A stretch of 64,000 nucleotides of DNA, from assembly GCA_007130045.1 (NCBI GenBank), contig SLTG01000021.1, forward strand, positions 1 through 64,000, written 5' to 3'. The stretch's first letter is position 1. Every line of letters begins with the position of its first letter. Under the pieces are notes generated by a model, which saw only the letters and a list, made by a program, of their open reading frames with translations, made no database searches and had not been told where the DNA came from. Of this stretch, positions 42,264-57,701 are shown piece after piece. Both the position numbers and the translations under genes were made by a program. The DNA is from Opitutales bacterium. GTDB lineage: Bacteria > Verrucomicrobiota > Verrucomicrobiia > Opitutales > T3Sed10-336.

Positions 42264-43631
42264 TTATTTCGCGGCCTTCAACATCTCTTCCAGTCGCTTG
42301 CGCATCTCCTCGAGTTCCCTGGCATAAGCGGGGTTGTCCACTTGATTCGTCTTCTCCGTTGGGTCCACCTGCAAGTCGAAAAGCTGTTCGTAGTCCCACT
42401 CCGGCCAATAAGCGTATTTAAGGTCCCGGCGCACAACAGCCTGTGATGCGGGTATGCGGTTCTTGTCAGTGATGGTTGGATGTTCATACAAGAATTCATC
42501 GCGCCAACCCGAAGGATCATCGACAAGGTAAAGCCGAGCCAGATCTTCGCCCTGGATCCCCTCGGGAACAGTCAGTCCGGCGGCGGCGAGAATGGTAGGC
42601 GCCAAGTCGATGTTCAACACCATTTCATCCCGCTTGATCCCACGTTCCTCCGCCGGCAAACGGGGGTCGTACACAATCAGGGGTACGCGGATGGACTCCT
42701 CATACGGATACCACTTATCAGCCAGCCCGCGATCGGCGTGAAAGTAACCATTGTCTCCCATGAAAATGATCAACGTGTTTTCGTACACCCCCTGATCTTT
42801 AAGCTCGGTGACGAGCCGGCCGACCGCTTCATCAAGCTCCGTGATCAAACGAAAGTAATTGGTCATGTATTCCTGGTATCGCTCCGGCGTATCAAAGCGC
42901 CAGTGGAAGCGGATGCGGCCCTCGTTGGACTCCTGGGAGAGAAATTCCGGCAGCGCTTCAAGATATGATGGGGCCATTTTCACCGACTCGGGTATCGTCA
43001 CCCCTTCGTAGTATTTGGCGCTCCAATCCTGAGGCAGGTATTGCTCCGGCGCCCGGTCTTCAGCGTGGGGGGCAAAATAGGACAGGCTCAGGATAAACGG
43101 CTGACCGGTTGGGCGTTCTCTGAGAAACTCAAGCGAGTCCTGCGCGTTTCGCTCGGTGACGTGAATACGTTCTCCGTCGATTTCATACCAATGACGGCCA
43201 TGATACGAACGGACGAAATCAAAGTCGTCTTCTCGAATGGAGCCGACATGATATTTCCCCACAAACCCACTCCAATAACCGGCGGACCGCATGACCGCGG
43301 GATACGTCTCGGAAAACGCCTTCGGGGCAAGCTCCTTGCCGAACCGGTCGATCCCGTGCCGCGACATGTACTGGCCGGTTAGAATCGATGCCCGGCTGGT
43401 CATGCAGATGCTGGTGGTGACAAACGCATCGGTAAAATGCACGCCGGTTTCCGCGAGTCTATCCAGGTGTGGCGTGTGAATAAATTCGCTTCCCCCGGCG
43501 CCGAACGCGTCCCAACGCTGATCGTCCGAAACCAGGACCACGACATTCATCGCCTCGGAACTTGCTTTGCCGCCGCAAACGCACGCGGTTACAGCCGTTG
43601 CGAGCAGAGTGAGAGCAGACAGTTTCTTCAT
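42264..43631 (-). CDS. Sulfatase (S1 family, arylsulfatase-like)
   Basis: MNVVVLVSDDQRWDAFGAGG; FGly-site region TSICMTSRASILTGQYMSRHGI; IIFMGDNGYFHADRGLADKWYPYEES. Confidence 0.9.
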   Translation of the reverse strand: MKKLSALTLLATAVTACVCGGKASSEAMNVVVLVSDDQRWDAFGAGGSEFIHTPHLDRLAETGVHFTDAFVTTSICMTSRASILTGQYMSRHGIDRFGKELAPKAFSETYPAVMRSAGYWSGFVGKYHVGSIREDDFDFVRSYHGRHWYEIDGERIHVTERNAQDSLEFLRERPTGQPFILSLSYFAPHAEDRAPEQYLPQDWSAKYYEGVTIPESVKMAPSYLEALPEFLSQESNEGRIRFHWRFDTPERYQEYMTNYFRLITELDEAVGRLVTELKDQGVYENTLIIFMGDNGYFHADRGLADKWYPYEESIRVPLIVYDPRLPAEERGIKRDEMVLNIDLAPTILAAAGLTVPEGIQGEDLARLYLVDDPSGWRDEFLYEHPTITDKNRIPASQAVVRRDLKYAYWPEWDYEQLFDLQVDPTEKTNQVDNPAYARELEEMRKRLEEMLKAAK

Positions 43632-43637
43632 GATTGA

Positions 43638-45113
43638 TTATTCTCCTTTTTCGTTCGGCATTTCCCCGTCCAACGGGAGCCAGGTGTCGATGCGGCGCGA
43701 CAGATGCCTCACACGCTCCGGTTGTTCATCCGCGAGATTGTTCTTCTCGTGCGGATCATCTTTTACATTGTACAATTCGATCCCCTCATGCACAGCAACA
43801 ATCGAATCTCCGACGAAAACTTCAGGAGCAAGGCCGGGGTCGGGCAGGATCAGCTTCCAGTCCCCCTCGACAATCCACCGATAATAGAGTCCCTTGAGCG
43901 GTTCGTCGATCGGAGCCGGCATGTCGTGCCCGTATATGTCTCCAAACACAGCATCTCTCTCCTCCACCGCCCTCCGATTCAGCAGATCGATTCCCTGCGA
44001 ATCAGCCGATGGCTCCAGCCCCGCCGCCCGCAAAATCGTCGGTTTCAAGTCGATGCTGCCGGCCAGGTTTTCCTCGTCCCTAAAGGGTTTCACCTTTCCC
44101 GTCCAGCGGACCATAATCGGCGTTCGCACGCCTCCTTCATGCGGACTGCGCTTCGATCGCGGAGCGTATCCCTCCTGTCGCCAATCCTCCGGCAGCCCCT
44201 CCATCTCCGGTGTGAGCTGGATCCACCCGTTGTCACAAACATAAAGAATGACGGTGTTGCCGCCCATCCCGTTCTCATCGATGTAATCGACCAACTGGCC
44301 ACAAGTTTCATCGAACCACTCGACCATCGCATAATACCGGGCCAGTTCCATCGGCCTGCCCTCAAGCATATACTTATTCAGCAGGCGCTCCGGCGGGTTG
44401 TGTGGCGTGTGCGGCAGGAAGGGAGCGTACCAGACGAAAAAGGGCTTCTCCTCTCCCGCGGCATGCTCGATGAATTCAAAAATCGGCTCCATTCCATCCC
44501 GGCCAATCCTCAACCCCGCATCGCCATGCCGGGCTCCGCGGGCGGGATCGCCGTGTGTCATCCCGTGCGTGAACCCGCCGACGCTGTAATTGCCTTCCCA
44601 CCACTTGCCTGACTGATGCGAAAGGTACCCCTCCTCCCCCAACCGCCGCGCGATTGTCGGCAGTTCCGCCATGCGGTCAACATACGGCTGGTTCGCCTTC
44701 GGACGTCCACCCGAGGCGCGCCGCGCCTCAGGATCGGGGTCATTGCCCGTGATTCCGTGCTCGTGCGGATACATCCCCGTCGCGATCGACGCCAGCGACG
44801 GCCGGCACAGACTTGAGGGCACATAACCTCTCGTCATCAACAGGCTCTCCTCCGCCAACCGGTCCAGGTGCGGGGTTTGAATGTGCTCGTGACCCATAAA
44901 ACCATAATGCCACCAGGACTGGTCATCGGAGATAATCAGCACGATATTCGGCCGATCCGCGGCTTCCGCTTCGCTCACTAAGCCGAAGACGATCAAAAAC
45001 GACAAGGAAACACCTGCACGGCAAAGGTTTATCATAAAATCAGGTCTGTACAAGACAGGCGTCATCAACAAAGTACTCCGAATAATTAACGATATGAGCG
45101 TTTCACTTCCCAT
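43638..45113 (-). CDS. Sulfatase (S1 family, arylsulfatase-like)
   Basis: PNIVLIISDDQSWWHYGFMGH; FGly-site region SSLCRPSLASIATGMYPHEHGI; VILYVCDNGW. Confidence 0.9.
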   Translation of the reverse strand: MGSETLISLIIRSTLLMTPVLYRPDFMINLCRAGVSLSFLIVFGLVSEAEAADRPNIVLIISDDQSWWHYGFMGHEHIQTPHLDRLAEESLLMTRGYVPSSLCRPSLASIATGMYPHEHGITGNDPDPEARRASGGRPKANQPYVDRMAELPTIARRLGEEGYLSHQSGKWWEGNYSVGGFTHGMTHGDPARGARHGDAGLRIGRDGMEPIFEFIEHAAGEEKPFFVWYAPFLPHTPHNPPERLLNKYMLEGRPMELARYYAMVEWFDETCGQLVDYIDENGMGGNTVILYVCDNGWIQLTPEMEGLPEDWRQEGYAPRSKRSPHEGGVRTPIMVRWTGKVKPFRDEENLAGSIDLKPTILRAAGLEPSADSQGIDLLNRRAVEERDAVFGDIYGHDMPAPIDEPLKGLYYRWIVEGDWKLILPDPGLAPEVFVGDSIVAVHEGIELYNVKDDPHEKNNLADEQPERVRHLSRRIDTWLPLDGEMPNEKGE

Positions 45114-45616: not shown

Positions 45617-47245
45617 ATGAAATTATCCTTTTGCACCGTCCTCTTGGCGATCGTCTGCGGCGCCCTGCTTTTCCATCCTTCCACGAAGGCATCCGCCGCC
45701 GTGGCCAGCCCCGATTACGAAAGGGAGAATTGGCCCGAAGTCCCCAAGCTGGTCTGGGCCAAGCCCGGTGAAAGCGGCGACTTCAACGATCCCGCAAACT
45801 GGCTGAAGAATGGGCAAGTATCCACTCGGGCGCCCGACCGCGACACGGATGTCGTCCTTCCTCCCGCACCGGGGCGATACCGCGTCAACGCCGGGCGCGA
45901 TCGCGAAGTCCGCCATCTCACGGTCGGCGAAAACGCCGAGATTCGGGGCGTACACCGCAATGAGCTGGAAATATGGGGCAATGCCTGGGTGAAGGATGGA
46001 GGCTGGGTGGAATACATCTCCATTCGTGGGCCGAAGAATACCTTTTTCCGGATGGACAGCGCCGAGTTTCCGACGAAGGAGAACGGCCTCACCTTTCTCG
46101 GCGGGCGATCCCGGACGTCCAAACCGCAGAGTCGTGGCCGGATCTCGCACAAATTCGAGATCGCCAAATACGGCGATGGTTCGGTGGAGCTCATTGGCAA
46201 CATCGGGGTTGGCGATGAGATCATGGTGCAGCACGGAAGAGCGATCATAAGCGGCGAGCTCCGCTGGTCGGGCGTAACCGACAAAGGCGCTATCGAGGTT
46301 TTCGACGGCGCGGTTCTCGAATTGCAGTCCGGCGCCACGATCGCGCCATTCCTAAGCAAGAACGGTAAAAACGTGTACAACGTCAACATCTACCGCGGCG
46401 GCATGCTTCAAGGGGGCTCGCCCGAACGCCCGCTGACCTCCGACGCCTACGTCCGGCTCGGCTACGGCTCCGACAACTCCGTGCAAGGCGAAAGCGGTCT
46501 CTTCGCCGCGCGAGGCTCGATTATCCGGGTCCACAGCAGCGATCCCGAAAACGCGCGGCTTGTCTTCCCCTCGATCACCGGCACGCCGGGATTCCACGAC
46601 GGCGACGGCAATCTCCTCGCCGATACTGAAACTCCCGCCCGCGGCCCCGGCGGCATCGTGCTCGACCTCGCCGGTGATGTCGATTTGCACGGAGCCTTCT
46701 TCGATTACGTCAGCGAGGGCGGAATTCGCCTTATTAACGCGGAAGTCCGCGACCAGTGGCGCGAGGTTGAATTTGGCGAGAATAACGCCGGTTCGCCCGA
46801 CCGGCTGTTTGCCCAGCTCGAGGTGGATGCGGACGTCTATTATCATGAGCGGCTCGACGGCGCGAGCGAGTTCGCGCTGACGAGGAGGGCGCGGCAGACA
46901 ATGGACGAGTTCATTCAACAACAGGATCCCTATCGGATCTCAGTCTCGCCCGAATCCGTCCAAATGGGGGAAGCCTTTGATCCACACCGCGGTGGACGCA
47001 CGTTCAAAAGGCCGGAGGCTGTCATCTTTAAAGACCCCATCGAGGTTTCCATCGAGGTCGAGGTTCCGGGAGCCGCGATCCACTACACAACCGACGGATC
47101 GGAAGTCTCACACGAGTCTCCCCGTTACACCGAACCGCTGCGGATCGAGCAAACGACCCGCCTTAATGTCCGCGCTTACGCCGAAGGCAAATCCCCGAGC
47201 ATGCCGGCCGCCTTCACTTATGTTTTCGAGGATGAAACCGATTAA
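45617..47245 (+). CDS. Exported beta-helix/G8-like protein with C-terminal chitobiase/beta-hexosaminidase-type (CHB_HEX_C) domain
   Basis: Signal peptide MKLSFCTVLLAIVCGALLFHPSTKASAA; WAKPGESGDFNDPANWLKNGQ; C-terminal VEVPGAAIHYTTDGSEVSHESPRYTEPLRIEQTTRLNVRAYAEGKSPS. Confidence 0.7.
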   Translation: MKLSFCTVLLAIVCGALLFHPSTKASAAVASPDYERENWPEVPKLVWAKPGESGDFNDPANWLKNGQVSTRAPDRDTDVVLPPAPGRYRVNAGRDREVRHLTVGENAEIRGVHRNELEIWGNAWVKDGGWVEYISIRGPKNTFFRMDSAEFPTKENGLTFLGGRSRTSKPQSRGRISHKFEIAKYGDGSVELIGNIGVGDEIMVQHGRAIISGELRWSGVTDKGAIEVFDGAVLELQSGATIAPFLSKNGKNVYNVNIYRGGMLQGGSPERPLTSDAYVRLGYGSDNSVQGESGLFAARGSIIRVHSSDPENARLVFPSITGTPGFHDGDGNLLADTETPARGPGGIVLDLAGDVDLHGAFFDYVSEGGIRLINAEVRDQWREVEFGENNAGSPDRLFAQLEVDADVYYHERLDGASEFALTRRARQTMDEFIQQQDPYRISVSPESVQMGEAFDPHRGGRTFKRPEAVIFKDPIEVSIEVEVPGAAIHYTTDGSEVSHESPRYTEPLRIEQTTRLNVRAYAEGKSPSMPAAFTYVFEDETD

Positions 47246-49327: not shown

Positions 49328-50971
49328 ATGGTACCCGACATCACACCGCAGCTCGCGGTAGTTCCGATCCTCATCAACGCCGGTGCGGCGGCGCTGCCCG
49401 CCCTGATTGCGGGCGTAGCCAGTGTGGCCGCGCTCATCTTTAAGCCGCGCCAACTCGTGCGCGCCTGTCGCCGGCATCCCGGTCGCGCTCTTGGCGTGTT
49501 GTTCGGAATCGCGGGGCTTACCGCCTTGATCGCATTCTGGCCGGCTGGTGATGCAACGGCTACAGGTACGGGGCGCCCGGCCACTTCCGCCAGCGCCTCC
49601 ACCACCGATTGGACGCGTGTCGCGCTCGAAATCATCCGCGAGGAACAGCGCCGGCAATCCCGCGGACCCGCAGTGACGCAACAGGTTTCGGCTAACGCCG
49701 AAGGCGGCACGGTTGACGTCGCGACCAGCGACGTTGACGCCCAGCCCGCAATCTTCCGTGGCGGCATCGAACGCACGGGGTACGCCGGAGGTCCGGCACC
49801 CCTCGGCCTGCAACCGCTCTGGGAATACGAGGAGCCATTCGCGATGTTCCTCTCCTCGCCGATTGTTCATGCCGATCGGGTCTATGCCGCATGGACCCTG
49901 CTGGATCCGCCAAACAGCTATGGCGGCCTGATCGCTCTCGATGCCGCAACCGGTGACCTGCTCTGGGAGATCGACGAGCGCGACGACGGAGAACCCTTCG
50001 TAGGCATCTTCAGCTCCCCCGCGGTCAGTGCCGACGGCCGCTACGTCGTGATCGGCCAGGGTCTGCACTATGATGCGAACTGCGACTTGATCTGCGTTGA
50101 CACACAGACGGGTGAAATCAAGTGGGTGGCGCCAACGCTCCTCCACCTCGAAAGTTCCCCGGCGATTTATGGCAACCTGGTGGTCATCGGCGCGGGCGCC
50201 ATCGAAGTGGGCAGTGACCGCCAACCGGAGGGACATCCGGGGTACGTGTTGGCGGTGGATCTCGAAACGGGCCGCGAGGTTTGGCGGCACGACATCGCGG
50301 ATCCCGAAAGTTCCCCCGCCGTGATCGACGGCATAGCCTATATCGGAAGCGGATTCAACGGCAACGCCGTCGTCGCCCTCCGCACCGAGTCTGAAGATGC
50401 CTTGCAGGCCAGTGGAAAGGACCGTGAGCTCTGGCGGCGCGACACCCCCTATCCCGCCCTGGGCCCGATCACGATCGCTGGCAATCTCGTGCTTGCCGGC
50501 TGCGGGAATGGAGATTTCGTCTTTAGGGCGCAGAATCCCGCTGGCGCCGTGCTCGCCCTCGATCGCGATAACGGTGAGGTTCGCTGGGAAACCGCACTGC
50601 CCGATACGGTGCTTGGTGCCATTGCCGTGCGCGACAACCTTGCCATCTGCCCGGTGCGTAACGGCGAGGTCATCGCCCTTGATCTCGACGATGGTGCCAT
50701 CGTCTGGCGCCAACGGATCAACGGCTCCGCCGCCATTCTCGGCGGTCCCGCGGTCACCGAGGATCTCGTTTACGCGGTCAGCCAGGATGGTTATCTCGCC
50801 ATCCTGGAGTTGCAGGATGGCTCCGTGCTGGAAAGACACTATTTGAACTCCGAAAGGCGGCCGGGCACACTCGGGCTGTCGGTAAGCTCACCCTTCGTGA
50901 GCGACGGCCGCGTTTATATCGGCAGCGAAACCGGCGGCTTGCGCGCCTTCGACGGAAGCACGTCACGGTGA
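49328..50971 (+). CDS. Membrane-anchored PQQ/BamB-like beta-propeller protein
   Basis: N-terminal hydrophobic helices (LINAGAAALPALIAGVASVAALIF; ALGVLFGIAGLTALIAFWPAG), then PQQ-like blades (GGLIALDAATGDLLWEIDE, LICVDTQTGEIKW, VLAVDLETGREVWRHD, VLALDRDNGEVRWETALP, VIALDLDDGAIVWRQRI). Confidence 0.85.
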   Translation: MVPDITPQLAVVPILINAGAAALPALIAGVASVAALIFKPRQLVRACRRHPGRALGVLFGIAGLTALIAFWPAGDATATGTGRPATSASASTTDWTRVALEIIREEQRRQSRGPAVTQQVSANAEGGTVDVATSDVDAQPAIFRGGIERTGYAGGPAPLGLQPLWEYEEPFAMFLSSPIVHADRVYAAWTLLDPPNSYGGLIALDAATGDLLWEIDERDDGEPFVGIFSSPAVSADGRYVVIGQGLHYDANCDLICVDTQTGEIKWVAPTLLHLESSPAIYGNLVVIGAGAIEVGSDRQPEGHPGYVLAVDLETGREVWRHDIADPESSPAVIDGIAYIGSGFNGNAVVALRTESEDALQASGKDRELWRRDTPYPALGPITIAGNLVLAGCGNGDFVFRAQNPAGAVLALDRDNGEVRWETALPDTVLGAIAVRDNLAICPVRNGEVIALDLDDGAIVWRQRINGSAAILGGPAVTEDLVYAVSQDGYLAILELQDGSVLERHYLNSERRPGTLGLSVSSPFVSDGRVYIGSETGGLRAFDGSTSR

Positions 50972-53900
50972 TGAGCGATTCACCCTGGATTCTCCCGCTC
51001 ACGTTGGCGCATGACGTGAGTTTGGTCGGCGGTAAAGCATCGAATCTCGCCCAACTCATCAACTCCGGTCTCCCGGTTCCATCGGGGTTCGCCATTACCA
51101 CCGCTTCCTTCCATGCGTGGTGCGATGCCGGAGACAATGGTATTCCAGAACCGGTCCGCGAAGCGATGATCGCCGCTTATCGCACGTTGGGCGGGCCGCA
51201 GGTCGCGGTGCGCTCTTCCGCGACAGCCGAGGATGGCAAGGAAGCCTCCATGGCTGGACAATACGAGACGATTCTCGGCGTGGAGGGCGAGGACGCGCTG
51301 TGCGCGGCGGTTTGTCGCTGCTGGCAGGCGTCCGACTCAGCCCGCGTCACGCACTATCTCGCGAAGCATGCCCCCGGCATCGAGACGGTTTCGCTCGGAC
51401 TTGTCGTTCAGCCCATGATTTCAGCCGATGCGGCGGGCGTGCTCTTCACGGCGAATCCCCGCAATGGGCGCCGTAACGAGATGCTGCTTGAAGCCGCCTG
51501 GGGACTTGGCGAAGCTGTAGTGTCGGGGAAGGTCCAACCCGACGTTATCACACTGGATCACGACACCGGGCATGTGCTCGACGCGTCGATCGCGGAAAAG
51601 TCCGCGACATACGATCCCGCGACCGGCGAAATGAGCCCGCTTCCCCCTGAGCGGCGCTCGGTACCGGTCCTCGGCAGCGCCGATGTCGCGGCGCTTGCGC
51701 GTTGGGGCCGGCGCGTTGAAGATATCTTTGGCGAACCTCAGGACATCGAGTGGGCACTCCATCGTGGCCGCGTTTACCTCCTTCAATCTCGGCCCATCAC
51801 CACGCTGGCGATTGCCGCGGCGCGTGAGGAGACACTGAACGAAACACGCGCCCGACTGATTACCGCCCTCGAAACGGGACAGGGTCCTTGGATCGTGCAT
51901 AACCTGGGCGAGACGGCGCCTCGGCCTACTCCGCTAACATGGACCGTTTTGCAGCGGTTCATGTCCGGGCAGGGTGGATACGGAAACCTCCAGCGCAAAG
52001 TGGGTTTCACTCCCGGTCCGTCCGTCGAGCGTGAAGGGTTCCTCGATCTGATCGGGGGGCAGATTTATATGGACGTTAGCCGCGGTCCCGAAATGTTCGG
52101 CGCAGGTTTTCCGTTTCACTACGATATCGAAAAGCTGCGGGCGGATCCGGATGCGGCAAATGGGCCGCCGACTCTGCCCGCGGGATCGATCGCGGCATTG
52201 TGGCGGGCAGGCCGGGTTTCCCGCTCGGTCGAACATCGCCTCGAAACGTATGCCGCCGATTTCGATCACCGGCTCGAAAGCGACATCATCCCGGCATTTG
52301 CAGCCTGGGTCGCGGAAGAGCGGAAGCGCGATCCGACGAAGCTCAGCCCGGCTGAATGGATCGATCTCTGGCGCATTCGCGAACAGCGGACCATGGACGA
52401 CTTTGCTTCCAGCGCTCTGCTGCCGAGCGTGCTTTGCGTCTGGACGACGGACCGCTTTCGGCAATTCCTCGAGACCCGTTTTTGGGACGACGAGCCGGAC
52501 GCCCTCCTGGCCACGCTCTCCGTCCCCGTCCGCCACGATTCCACTATCAAATCGAACTCAGGTTTGTGCGAGTTGGCCGAGGGCCGGAACAGCCTCGAAA
52601 ACTGGCTGGGAGAGCATGGTCATCGTGCGCCGGAGGAGTTCGAACTCGCGACGCCCCGCTGGTCCGAACGGCCTGAAGCCATTGCCGGACTGGTTGAGCA
52701 CATGCGCGGCCGCGAGGATCCGGCGATGCGGCATGACCAGCGCCAGCAAGCGGCGCGGGATTGTCTCGCCTCCCTTTCGCGGCGCCTCTCTTCCCGCGAC
52801 TCCGCCACGCTCCAGACCCTGGCCGACCGGCTTTCGCGTTACCTGCCTTACCGCGAAGACGGGAAGCACCACCTGATGCTCGGCTATGGCCTGCTGCGCG
52901 ATCTTGCCCTGGAAGCCGCGCGCCGTCTCGACCTCGACGCGGAGGTTTTCCTGCTTACGCCCGCGGAGATCGAGCACGCGCTTGAAACCGGCTACGCGCC
53001 TCACCACCTTATCAACGAGCGTCGCCTGCGCCGGGAAGCTGAGAAAGAGCTCGCATTGCCGACACTGCTGACGCGCTTGGAAGTCGAGAATATAGGGGAC
53101 CCGCCGCCCGTGGATTTCACTGTGGAACGATGGAAGTCAGTACCGCTCGCCGGAGGTCGCGGGAGTGGACCCGTGCGCATCCTGAACGCGCCGGATCAGA
53201 TTGACGCGGGCGAGCGTGGCTTCGTCCTCGTTTGTGCCACAACCGACCCGGGATGGACGCCGCTCTTCGCGAGCGCCGAGGCCGTTGTTGTGGAGCGTGG
53301 CGGCAGCTTGTCGCACGGCGCGGTCGTCGCGCGCGAAATGGGTGTGCCGGCCGTGACCTTGCCGGGAGCGACGCGGCTGTTGCGCGAGGGCGAAACGGTC
53401 ACCGTCGATGGCCGGCATGGCTGGGTCGCACGCGGCGCCCCGCCTTCGTCCGCTTCTGACGAGGCTGGTGCAGCGGATGACGAGCCAATCCCCCGCGAAC
53501 TCCAGCCACCGCCCCCCGGCGACGGCGAGGAGCAGGCCGCACGCTGGCGCCGTATTGGTTTTTCCGTTTGGGGCGTGTTTCTTGCCGCCTTTTTCCTGCT
53601 CCCTGCGCCGTGGCTTCAGTACCCGGCAATCCAAACAGTGGACCTGCTCCTCTGGCCGCTGGTGGCCACCTGGGGCAAAGTGGCAACGGTCGCGATTCTC
53701 GCCGCGGTCACGGCCACTGTAATACTGGTCGGCCAGCGCGTGCTCAACGACCATGCACGGCTCGTAATCGCCAAGCAGCGCTGGCAGCGACTGCAGGCCC
53801 GGGCCCGGACGTTGCCCGAGGACGCCCCGCGACGGAAACAACTGCTCGCCTGCGGCGCGGGAGTGCAGAAGCGCCTGACTCTCGCGGCGTTTACTCCCCT

Positions 53901-54582
53901 CGCCATCCTGCTGGGGCCGATGGTGCTTTCGTTCATGTGGCTTATGGAACGGATCGATCCGCTCGCCTGGAATCCATCGCCCGGCAGCAGCGCCGCGATC
54001 GTGGCGCTGGTCGATGGCGACCATCTTGAGCCGCTGACCATCGAGCTTTCCGACTCGTTGCAACTCGCCCCCCATAGCTCTTTCGAGCAACAGGTGCCGC
54101 CCGTGCGCGAAACCCTTGAAGCGCTTCGGCAGCGCTGGCAGGCCGCGCCCTCGGGCGACAACAGCTTGCCTTGGGATGTTCGCGCCGCCGCCAGGCGCAC
54201 ACGTGCCGAGTTGCTTGACGACTTGCGCTCCTTCCTTGCGCAGCCGGTGCCGCCGCAAACGGTTGCGTGGACTGTTGATCTCCCGGAGGAACGGGGACGG
54301 TTTCCTGTTGTGATCCGTACAAGCGGAATGGATCCCGTCCATTTCAACCTTCTCGCCGGGGACGCGGCTCCCCCTTCGCCACCCATCGCATTCACGAGCG
54401 AGTCAGCGCCTATCCGCGAACTCAGCGTCGAATACCGCGAAGCCCGCATTCAAGATGACCGAGTGTTCGCGACTCCGTTTTCTCGTTTCGGATGGGCTTG
54501 GGACGTGGGCTGGCTCGGCGTCTATCTGCTCGTCTATCTCCCTGTCATGGTCGTCGTGCGGCGCGCGCTGCGACTGCCGTGA
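50968..54582 (+). CDS. Fusion of rifampin-phosphotransferase/PEP-synthase-like module with a C-terminal membrane domain (possibly DUF106/EMC3/Oxa1-like)
   Basis: PPDK-type ATP-grasp motifs [76 protein letters not shown]; swivelling His domain [41 protein letters not shown]; then several TM segments. GTG start at 50968, or ATG at 50971 overlapping the upstream TGA. Confidence 0.85.
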   Translation: [1204 protein letters not shown]

Positions 54583-54666: not shown

Positions 54667-56169
54667 TTAGCCTGATCTCCGAAATGCATAATCTCTAAGT
54701 CGCTTCCACCAACTGGTCCGGCTTCCCAGCGAAATGATGATTGCCAGCAGAAAGAGCAGCGCAAAGGGCCTGGTCATAAATGGCAGCAGCGACCCGTCAT
54801 GAACCGTAAGGGCACGGCGCAGGTTCTCGTCGAGGAGGGGCCCAAGGATCAGCCCGAGAATCAGCGGAGCCGCGGGATATTTCATTTCGGTGAGCAGGTA
54901 ATAAATCAGACCGATCCCCAGCATGATCCAGACGTCAAACAAGCTGAGGTTCAACGAATAGGCCCCAATCACACAGAGAACGGCGATGATCGGCATAAAT
55001 ATCCCGCGCGGAATGCTGAGGGCCTTTGCCACCACTCGCGTCAGCAACAAACCCCACGCCGACATGATGCAGGCGGCCACCAGCAGCATGGCGCCGATCT
55101 GGTAGATGAACCCGGGTGACTCGACGGCAAGCATCGGGCCGGGTCTGATCCCGTGCAGCCACAGCGCGCCCAACAGTACGGCGGTCGGTGGACTGCCCGG
55201 CACGGCAAGTGTCAACAGCGGGATCAACGCTCCGCCAATGGCCGCATTGTTGCCGGTCTCAGCCGCCAGAACCCCTTCATAAGAACCTTTGCCAAACTCC
55301 TCCGGATGTTTGCTTAACTTCCGCGCCACCCCGTAAGACCCCCAACTCGCAATGTCCTCCCCTACTCCGGGAATCGCCCCGATGCTTGTGCCGACGGCTC
55401 CCGAACGGAGCGAGGCCGGAATCAGTTTCTTGAAGTCCTTCCAGGTGGGAAGGATGCGTCCTGATTCAGCAATTACCACGTGCTTCGCATCCGGGGTTTT
55501 CATCGTCCGGATAATTTGCGGGATTCCGAAAACCCCAATCATAGCCGGCACCAGGGCTATTCCTGTCAACAGCATCGGCGTCTCAAAGGTGAACCGAGCG
55601 TATCCGTGGAGGGGATCGATACCGACCGTTGAGAGCAGAATTCCCAACACCCCGGCGATCCATCCCTTGATCGGCCAATCCTGCGAGGTAATCGAACCAC
55701 AAATCAAAATGCCGAACAACGCGAGCAGAGAAAATTCCACGGCGGTGAATCGCAGGGCCAACCGGCTGATCCAGGGCGCCAATGCCATGAGAATAATCAG
55801 CCCGAAAATCGTCCCCATCAGAGATCCAACAGTCGCGTAGCCCTTGGCCCTCCCTCCTTCCCCTTTGAGCGCCAATGGATACCCATCCATAGCCGTGGCC
55901 GCTGCGGAAGCGGTGCCCGGTATGTTCAACATGATCGCCGTAAACGAACCGCCGTAAATAGCTCCCACGTAGATCCCCAGCAGAACAATCAACGCCGCCT
56001 GCGTATCCAGTCCGTAGGTCACTCCCGTCAACAACGCGATGGCCAGGGTTGCCGTCAAACCGGGAAGCGCTCCGACCAGGATCCCCAGTACCGTGGCTCC
56101 GGCGAAGATCAGCAACGTCATCGGCGTCAATAACGCCAGGACTTCTTTGAAGAATGTTACGATCTCCAT
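54667..56169 (-). CDS. Tripartite tricarboxylate transporter large permease, TctA family
   Basis: GILVGALPGLTATLAIALLTGVTYGL, GIYVGAIYGGSFTAIMLNIPGTASAAATAMDGYPLALKGEGGRA, GVGEDIASWGSYGVARKLSKHPEEFGKGSYEGVLAAETGNNAAIGGALIPLLTLAVPGSPPTAVLLGAL. Confidence 0.95.
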   Translation of the reverse strand: MEIVTFFKEVLALLTPMTLLIFAGATVLGILVGALPGLTATLAIALLTGVTYGLDTQAALIVLLGIYVGAIYGGSFTAIMLNIPGTASAAATAMDGYPLALKGEGGRAKGYATVGSLMGTIFGLIILMALAPWISRLALRFTAVEFSLLALFGILICGSITSQDWPIKGWIAGVLGILLSTVGIDPLHGYARFTFETPMLLTGIALVPAMIGVFGIPQIIRTMKTPDAKHVVIAESGRILPTWKDFKKLIPASLRSGAVGTSIGAIPGVGEDIASWGSYGVARKLSKHPEEFGKGSYEGVLAAETGNNAAIGGALIPLLTLAVPGSPPTAVLLGALWLHGIRPGPMLAVESPGFIYQIGAMLLVAACIMSAWGLLLTRVVAKALSIPRGIFMPIIAVLCVIGAYSLNLSLFDVWIMLGIGLIYYLLTEMKYPAAPLILGLILGPLLDENLRRALTVHDGSLLPFMTRPFALLFLLAIIISLGSRTSWWKRLRDYAFRRSG

Positions 56170-56652
56170 CTAAGGAAGGGGAATTCGCGCCAAATGTTCG
56201 AATACAATGCCAATGGCGGTGGAAACAATCGCCGAGATCGAAAGAATCTTCCACCATGCCGTCGCCTTGAAGAGGAACATAAAGGCCACCAGAAATAAAA
56301 AACTGGCCAAAATGAAATGAACGCGCCCGAGCAACCCGAATACATAGACCATGAGAAGAAGGGCGGCCAGAGCGCTTCGTCCGGAAGCCGGATCGGCGAT
56401 CGCTGCCTTCAGCCGCGAAAAATCCTCGTGCTTCCAGGCTCCTCCTTCCTGAAAAGCGTGGAATGAAAGAGCGCTGCCCAGCAAAAACAGGACGATCGCG
56501 GCGGCGGCGGGCACCAGCCCCGGAGCCGTGTACCACCCGTCACGTTGAACGACGCTCAAATCCCAGCCAAGCTTGAGGCTCAGCGCGAATGCCGCCAACC
56601 CCAACGCGGCCAGCATAATGCCTGTAATGAAATCCGCTTTGCGCAACCACAT
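56170..56652 (-). CDS. Tripartite tricarboxylate transporter small permease, TctB family
   Basis: 160-aa protein with four hydrophobic segments directly upstream of the TctA homologue. Confidence 0.85.
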   Translation of the reverse strand: MWLRKADFITGIMLAALGLAAFALSLKLGWDLSVVQRDGWYTAPGLVPAAAAIVLFLLGSALSFHAFQEGGAWKHEDFSRLKAAIADPASGRSALAALLLMVYVFGLLGRVHFILASFLFLVAFMFLFKATAWWKILSISAIVSTAIGIVFEHLARIPLP

Positions 56653-56669
56653 TGATTTGTTCCGCGGAA

Positions 56670-57701
56670 TTACGGTCTGGCGATTCCATATCTCTCCGGC
56701 GAGTGCCGGGCAAGTTGCTCGTCGTATAGCAGCCAGGTCAGCCTGCTCTCTCTCTCGGCAAAAAGGGCGGACGCCTCCTCTCCCGAATAACCAAAAAGTT
56801 CGGAATGGCTCGCCTCGCCGAATTGTCTGATTTCATCCGAGTCCATGGCGCGCTTGAAGGCCCCCTCGATAGTCTCCAGAATTTCCGCAGGGGTATCCGC
56901 CGGCAAAGCGAACCCGATGTACTGGCGGAGCGGAAAATGATCCTTTAACTCAGGGAGCGGTCCGCTAATCGGCGGCAGTTCGCCGATTCCTTCGTATCGA
57001 CGCGGCTCCGTCTCCATGACGGCAAGAGGGCGGAGGTGTCCGGACCGCAGGAGTTCGACCTGTTCGCCCAGACCGGTCAGGACTACATCCACTTCGCCGG
57101 ATAGGGCCGCCACCTGCGACGGATGACTTCCCGGATAGGAAATCCAGCGGACCTGCAACCCGGCCGCCTTCGACATAACGAGGTATTGCTCGTGCCAGAC
57201 GGTTCCGGGAAATGCCGAAGCCATTCGGATTTGGTTCGGCCGGTCGCGAATAGCCGCAATCAGCTCCTCCAATGTATGATAGGGAGAATCAGCCGGTACC
57301 GACAAAATTCCCGGAGTCCCGCAAATCAGGAAGTAGTGCCAGTCCCGCGAGGTGGTCGAGTGAGCGCCGAACACCGGCATGGCCAGAGCGCCCTCCGACA
57401 TGCCAAACCAGGTATGTCCGTCACGCCGGGCATTCCATACATGATTCGCCGCCGAACCGCCCTGGGCTCCGGGTATGTTGAGCACGGATATGGTCGCGCC
57501 CAGTTCTCTTTCCATCACGTTCGCCATCGTTCGATTGGCCAAGTCCGTCGATCCGCCGGGCGAAGCAAACACGGCAACATTAATTGTTTTGCGCCCGGGC
57601 CATTCTCCGGCGTCCCGCCCGTTCGGTTCGGAATCGCATCCCCCGAGAAACAGGCCAATAAATAGGGTGGTTATTACAATGTAATGGGAGAGCGTTTTCA
57701 T
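56670..57701 (-). CDS. TctC/Bug-family tripartite tricarboxylate transporter substrate-binding lipoprotein
   Basis: Lipobox LFLGGCDSEP; INVAVFASPGGSTDLANRTMANVMERELGATISVLNIPGAQGGSAANHVWNARRDGHTW. Confidence 0.9.
   Translation of the reverse strand: MKTLSHYIVITTLFIGLFLGGCDSEPNGRDAGEWPGRKTINVAVFASPGGSTDLANRTMANVMERELGATISVLNIPGAQGGSAANHVWNARRDGHTWFGMSEGALAMPVFGAHSTTSRDWHYFLICGTPGILSVPADSPYHTLEELIAAIRDRPNQIRMASAFPGTVWHEQYLVMSKAAGLQVRWISYPGSHPSQVAALSGEVDVVLTGLGEQVELLRSGHLRPLAVMETEPRRYEGIGELPPISGPLPELKDHFPLRQYIGFALPADTPAEILETIEGAFKRAMDSDEIRQFGEASHSELFGYSGEEASALFAERESRLTWLLYDEQLARHSPERYGIARP

Follow-up and report, generated by a model that had tools for sequence, protein, structure and literature searches.

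The closest described enzyme to the one considered here is the rifampin phosphotransferase (RPH) RPH-Lm (PDB 5FBS, 5FBT and 5FBU), of the type by which the antibiotic rifampin is inactivated; this enzyme, like the Rph-type small-molecule dikinases in general, has its ATP-grasp, middle and His domains in that order. Lys22, Arg117 and Thr136 serve its ATP half-reaction, His825 carries the phosphate, and Arg666 and Glu667 serve the transfer to the substrate, which is held mainly through hydrophobic contacts; Glu297 is dispensable (PMC4844700). As for membrane proteins, the relevant family acts in membrane protein insertion in archaeal and eukaryotic cells. Descriptions of its DUF106 branch, within the Oxa1 superfamily, place it in archaea and propose that eukaryotic EMC3 and Get1 derive from it (PMC8887752). 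Archaeal DUF106 (MJ0480, PDB 5C8J) and eukaryotic EMC3/TMCO1 (PF01956) share the order transmembrane helix (TM), cytoplasmic coiled coil, TM and last TM, and in the eukaryotic EMC the EMC3 subunit stands beside EMC1, which is membrane-bound and bears an extracytoplasmic propeller.

We analyzed a 64,000-nucleotide stretch of an Opitutales bacterium genome (contig SLTG01000021.1, positions 1 to 64,000; hereafter the window), in which relatives of both kinds of module appear to be joined in one protein (Table 1). The reading frame, listed as a single ORF in the first-pass annotation, has no internal stop and gives 1204 aa when counted from GTG 50968, the numbering used throughout for this protein. 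An ATG at 50971, overlapping the stop codon that ends the preceding gene (TGATG, 50969-50973), would give 1203 aa and is more likely the true start. The survey for recurrence that had been proposed with the annotation returned the same fusion, in a single frame, at 21 further loci, including a single-contig assembly (G564); many of the genomes compared are draft assemblies. These one-frame loci rule out chance and an assembly or frameshift artefact, and the fused ORF is real, intact and recurrent. In a comparison of two of its homologues (L058 and L060), dN/dS was 0.15 in the dikinase and 0.14 in the membrane part, and both parts are therefore under purifying selection.

Table 1. Features of the cassette and of the fused protein in the window
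Feature	Coordinates	Strand	Basis or remark
Secreted CHB_HEX_C/Fn3-associated protein	45617..47245	+	Pfam; homologues in 15/49 loci
FG-GAP propeller protein, N-terminal signal-like hydrophobic segment	47267..49321	+	Pfam, hydropathy; homologues in 24/49 loci
PQQ/BamB-like beta-propeller protein, two N-terminal TMs	49328..50971	+	Pfam, hydropathy; homologues in 40/49 loci
Fused dikinase + EMC3/DUF106-like protein	50968..54582	+	Probable start ATG 50971
ATP-grasp domain (K23, R82, T101, E261)	50968..51828	+	PF01326, 247.8 bits; mapping to RPH-Lm
Middle (substrate) domain, Rph type	51829..53127	+	R629, E630, K633 at 52852-52866
Swivel phosphohistidine domain	53128..53457	+	PF00391, 73.7 bits; His783 at 53314-53316
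Extra TM helix (863-882)	53554..53613	+	In fused proteins, not in split ones
DUF106/EMC3 core, residues 898-994	53659..53949	+	Profile matches to MJ0480/archaeal DUF106; hydropathy
Extracytoplasmic inserted domain (995-1177), predicted	53950..54498	+	Not in archaeal DUF106
TM3 (1178-1197) + positive 7-residue tail	54499..54582	+	Collinear with the last TM of MJ0480

Judged by its sequence, the stretch from residue 1 to 830 is an Rph-type dikinase with ATP-grasp, middle and His domains. In Pfam, the best stretch for PPDK_N was 58-287 and PEP-utilizers matched 749-818 (scores in Table 1), with no match to the window protein past residue 830. The motifs on which the dikinase assignment had first been based were all located: GGK at 21-23, a 10-residue motif at 81 and LLQSRPIT at 271 in the ATP-grasp domain, and a 13-residue motif at 778 containing the catalytic His at 783. 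Both the domain order and every catalytic residue tested are of the Rph type. When aligned to RPH-Lm (PDB 5FBS), K23, R82, T101 and E261 correspond to Lys22, Arg117, Thr136 and Glu297, and R629, E630, K633 and H783 to Arg666, Glu667, Lys670 and His825, so that equivalents of the residues for both half-reactions are present. These eight positions are near-invariant in 22 fused and 23 split dikinases (truncated ends aside), the exceptions being a Ser at T101 in two members and an Arg at K633 in one, and His783 is invariant across all catalytic members of the system. They are not kept in one degenerate member (L158, 4469-6934), from which the ATP-grasp and His domains have disappeared; its middle and EMC3-like domains persist, and the PQQ protein is still encoded next to it. 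Catalysis is therefore dispensable in some versions.

Unlike RPH, the window dikinase is attached to a membrane protein, as it is by fusion or linkage elsewhere, and has a middle-domain signature of its own. Forty-six positions of this domain are at least 90% conserved in both the fused and the split clades, among them H311, T316, W325, F331, M332 and Y385, each at least 90% in both; in a rough alignment with 41 other Rph-type dikinases, the same residues were found in 0%, 14%, 17%, 8%, 8% and 8%, respectively. The signature shared by the two clades points to one distinct substrate class. The window protein also scored far under the cut-offs of the NCBIfam RPH model (NF041857; 319.5 bits versus 999) and of the PEP synthase (TIGR01418; 268.6 versus 739.75) and PPDK (TIGR01828; 65.5 versus 843.45) equivalogs, and we therefore regard it as an Rph-type dikinase that probably has another substrate. 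A role in rifamycin resistance, which the RPH-like domain order and catalytic residues would allow, is made highly improbable by the score against the RPH model and by the position of the gene in a conserved multi-gene membrane system. Ordinary soluble-type metabolism of PEP or pyruvate by an enzyme simply tethered to the membrane would suit a member of the PEP-utilising superfamily, but it seems very unlikely: Pfam found no PEP/pyruvate TIM-barrel domain in the window protein, both equivalog cut-offs are far off, the genome has other PPDK_N genes, and the close linkage to a membrane cassette would be left unexplained. For the split dikinases, whose N-terminus is suggestive of PPDK, that identity was ruled out, the His domain being C-terminal as in Rph. 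Elsewhere in the genome of the window, two adjacent large dikinase genes of 1196 and 1152 aa (L275, contig C47:1244-8302 of G000), judged by eye from their translations, resemble those of alpha-glucan water dikinases, and the first of them opens with what looks like a xylose-isomerase-like TIM barrel.

The first-pass annotation had drawn three TM segments in the remainder of the protein; the membrane region is there, and hydropathy gives four segments (ca. 863-882, 898-925, 971-994 and 1178-1197). Residues 898-1204 are, by profile comparison, a bacterial homologue of DUF106/EMC3 in the Oxa1 superfamily. The core comprises TM1 (898-925), a positive, predicted cytoplasmic coiled coil (926-970) and TM2 (971-994). 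The single-sequence Pfam scan of the window protein gave no match to PF01956, and family profiles were therefore needed. With a profile of five C-terminal-domain sequences (A2), a search of the whole PDB returned MJ0480 (5C8J) as the sole significant match (E=1.9e-7), spanning TM-coiled coil-TM and, collinearly, the last TM, in agreement with the DUF106/EMC3/Oxa1 likeness suggested beforehand. A 41-sequence profile (A4) matched MJ0480 at E=8.6e-15, with the next PDB match at 0.07, and recovered archaeal DUF106 proteins at E down to 4e-18, most of them as two collinear stretches flanking the inserted domain in the model. Conversely, PF01956 (EMC3_TMCO1) matched 21 of the 41 aligned members at E up to 1 (best, 1.8e-9), and two split relatives exceeded its gathering score of 27.1 (L159, 293 aa, with 35.3 bits, and another with 28.6). 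Among 14 control genomes, this family was present in three archaea only and in no bacterial one.

An AlphaFold2 model of the C-terminal domain built from the 41 sequences had a pLDDT of 93.2 and a pTM of 0.83. When it was compared with the PDB by Foldseek, no Oxa1 or EMC3 structure was among the matches listed and nothing reached E<=0.001; the matches of two C-terminal-domain models were weak and mostly to soluble proteins. This outcome probably reflects the dominance of the soluble insert, a domain of 130-180 aa in the family (183 residues in the window protein) placed before the last TM. The insert, a further N-terminal TM in the fused form and the tie to a dikinase set this bacterial type apart from archaeal DUF106 and EMC3.

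In the window protein, the loop joining the second and third of the four segments carries 11 K/R against 3 D/E and is strongly positive, whereas K/R are absent between the first and second segments. The net charge of the 183-residue domain is negative and that of the tail positive; the mean net charge of the TM1-TM2 coiled coil is +6 to +7 in fused and split forms alike. Because of this charge distribution and following the positive-inside rule, the dikinase, coiled coil and tail would be cytoplasmic and the 183-residue domain would lie outside. The split EMC3-like proteins start at about model position 28, that is, downstream of the extra TM 863-882. The N-terminus of the archaeal and split core would be outside, and the extra helix may thus be required in the fused form for keeping the dikinase in the cytoplasm. 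Near-invariant residues of the membrane domain are D892 before TM1, P977, W991 and R995 at the end of TM2, and W1182, Y1186, P1192 and K/R1198.

These features bear on the possibility that the module is an EMC-like insertase of particular envelope proteins, with the propellers as partners or clients and the dikinase exerting control through phosphotransfer. Its nearest solved relative, MJ0480, is an Oxa1-superfamily protein, Oxa1 can be functionally replaced by EMC (PMC8887752), and the partners encoded in the cassette are propeller proteins that are exported or lie in the membrane. However, none of the columns of the 41-sequence alignment shows a conserved charge midway through TM1, TM2 or TM3, unlike the YidC homologues, which are reported to keep a positive charge at the centre of the groove (PMC8920935). 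The tail, at 7 residues, offers no ribosome-binding extension, and the Rph catalytic residues for small-molecule transfer are retained. On balance we consider an insertase unlikely.

The genes around the fused ORF form a conserved cassette that is absent from the first-pass reading and became apparent in the present analysis. HMMs of the cassette proteins were run against all ORFs of 49 loci, and the recurring order was FG-GAP protein, PQQ-propeller protein with two N-terminal TMs, dikinase and EMC3-like protein, frequently with a CHB_HEX_C-type secreted protein as a further member; dozens of bacteria have these partner genes together. Twenty-two members are fused (the window, L058-L061, L150-L157 and L233-L241). 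In the split form, found in Planctomycetota, Verrucomicrobiota and Sumerlaeota (L271), the EMC3-like protein (ca. 290 aa) has its own gene, adjoining that of the dikinase. This linkage is an independent test, because the membrane-domain profile alone found the stand-alone EMC3-like genes (L159 and L209-L232): a dikinase is directly adjacent to 24 of the 25, the sole exception being a weak match (L223). The PQQ protein is also beside 18 of these 24 pairs, the other 6 lying at or near contig ends. In one locus (L213) the EMC3-like gene precedes the dikinase, and the split cassette also occurs in two genomes from the same family as the window (L245 and L246). Around the weak EMC-like matches L160 and L223, no cassette was found. 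Outside the cassette, neighbouring genes recur in at most 4 of the 49 loci, and thus no pathway names the substrate.

The positive loop between its two TMs would place the PQQ propeller outside the cytoplasm. The arrangement resembles that of EMC3 and EMC1, and the PQQ protein matched the EMC1 family PF25293 at E 0.002-0.006, below the cut-off. PQQ propellers are common, and the similarity is generic, since the best PDB matches were designed propellers and PQQ and BamB proteins; a bacterial EMC1 was therefore dropped as a claim. The predicted placement of large propellers outside and of an enzyme inside the cytoplasm would also suit a transmembrane sensor in which the propellers bind a ligand and the helices switch the dikinase, which would make a phosphorylated signal or modify a protein. 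However, no regulator or receiver gene is conserved near the cassettes, and an Oxa1-type core is not known as a sensor module, which leaves a sensor rather improbable, more so than an insertase.

Several other genes were seen near the cassettes. Upstream of the one in the window are two sulfatase-like genes (42264-45113, minus strand; 43638-45113 confirmed by Pfam), and sulfatase-related genes also lie near three others (L153, L236 and L241). A tripartite tricarboxylate transporter operon (54667-57701, minus strand; TctA and TctC by Pfam) is convergent with the window cassette. In two Opitutaceae loci (L058:245-2743 and L060:345-2708), the CHB_HEX_C gene is immediately preceded by a TonB-dependent-receptor-like gene, recognized by eye.

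A maximum-likelihood tree of 49 dikinases, obtained by a quick method and with long outgroup branches, placed the 22 fused and 24 split forms on opposite sides of a fully supported branch, and one fusion (or one fission) therefore suffices. Two genomes carry both forms (fused L156 and split L225 in G303; fused L155 and split L228 in G399), which can thus coexist as distinct systems.

The explanation that we tentatively favor over an insertase or a sensor, with a confidence somewhat short of even, is a complex spanning the cytoplasmic membrane, at which it would phosphorylate a substrate that is hydrophobic or linked to a lipid. The domain make-up, the catalytic-residue conservation, the DUF106/EMC3 homology, the gene linkage and the tree are the observations on which it is built. 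An active, membrane-anchored enzyme would use ATP to phosphorylate His783 in the cytoplasm, yielding AMP and Pi, and the swivel domain would carry this phosphate to the middle domain, where the substrate would lie beside R629, E630 and K633. The outer half of the complex would consist of the inserted extracytoplasmic domain together with two partners, the FG-GAP protein and the PQQ-propeller membrane protein. Phosphate transfer to a dedicated substrate is proposed because the residues for both half-reactions are intact and the middle-domain signature is shared, and the membrane module and exported partners suggest that this substrate sits at the membrane. More speculatively, it would be lipid-linked and be met at, or moved through, the EMC3/DUF106-like module. 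A hydrophobic or lipid-linked nature is preferred in view of the hydrophobic contacts in RPH, the lipid scrambling by Oxa1-superfamily proteins in vitro (PMC10491306) and the phosphodiesterase or sulfatase neighbours of some EMC3-like genes. The latter are dikinase-less genes in two Acidobacteria (L273 and L274) and one Poribacteria (L272) whose neighbours encode phosphodiesterases (PF01663) or sulfatases, members of the alkaline phosphatase superfamily that give a thin hint of phosphate esters. A CysD-like gene is also near the EMC3-like gene in L273 and L274.

No description of this system was found in the open-access literature, which is not proof of novelty, and the dikinase/EMC3-like/propeller cassette is apparently an undescribed machine across the cell membrane. 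That it couples the phosphohistidine chemistry of the dikinase to the EMC3-like module and the extracytoplasmic propellers, for an ATP-driven modification and passage of a membrane substrate (a lipid-linked molecule or a protein), is possible, if doubtful.

The DUF106 branch thus extends to bacteria, here linked to an enzyme whose phosphotransfer residues are intact. Many Rph-type dikinases have no known substrate (PMC4844700), and the cassette provides a genomic context for part of them. If the dikinase acts on the cargo of the membrane module, an Oxa1-family protein would gain a chemical partner, and there would be a handle on roles of this family besides protein insertion.
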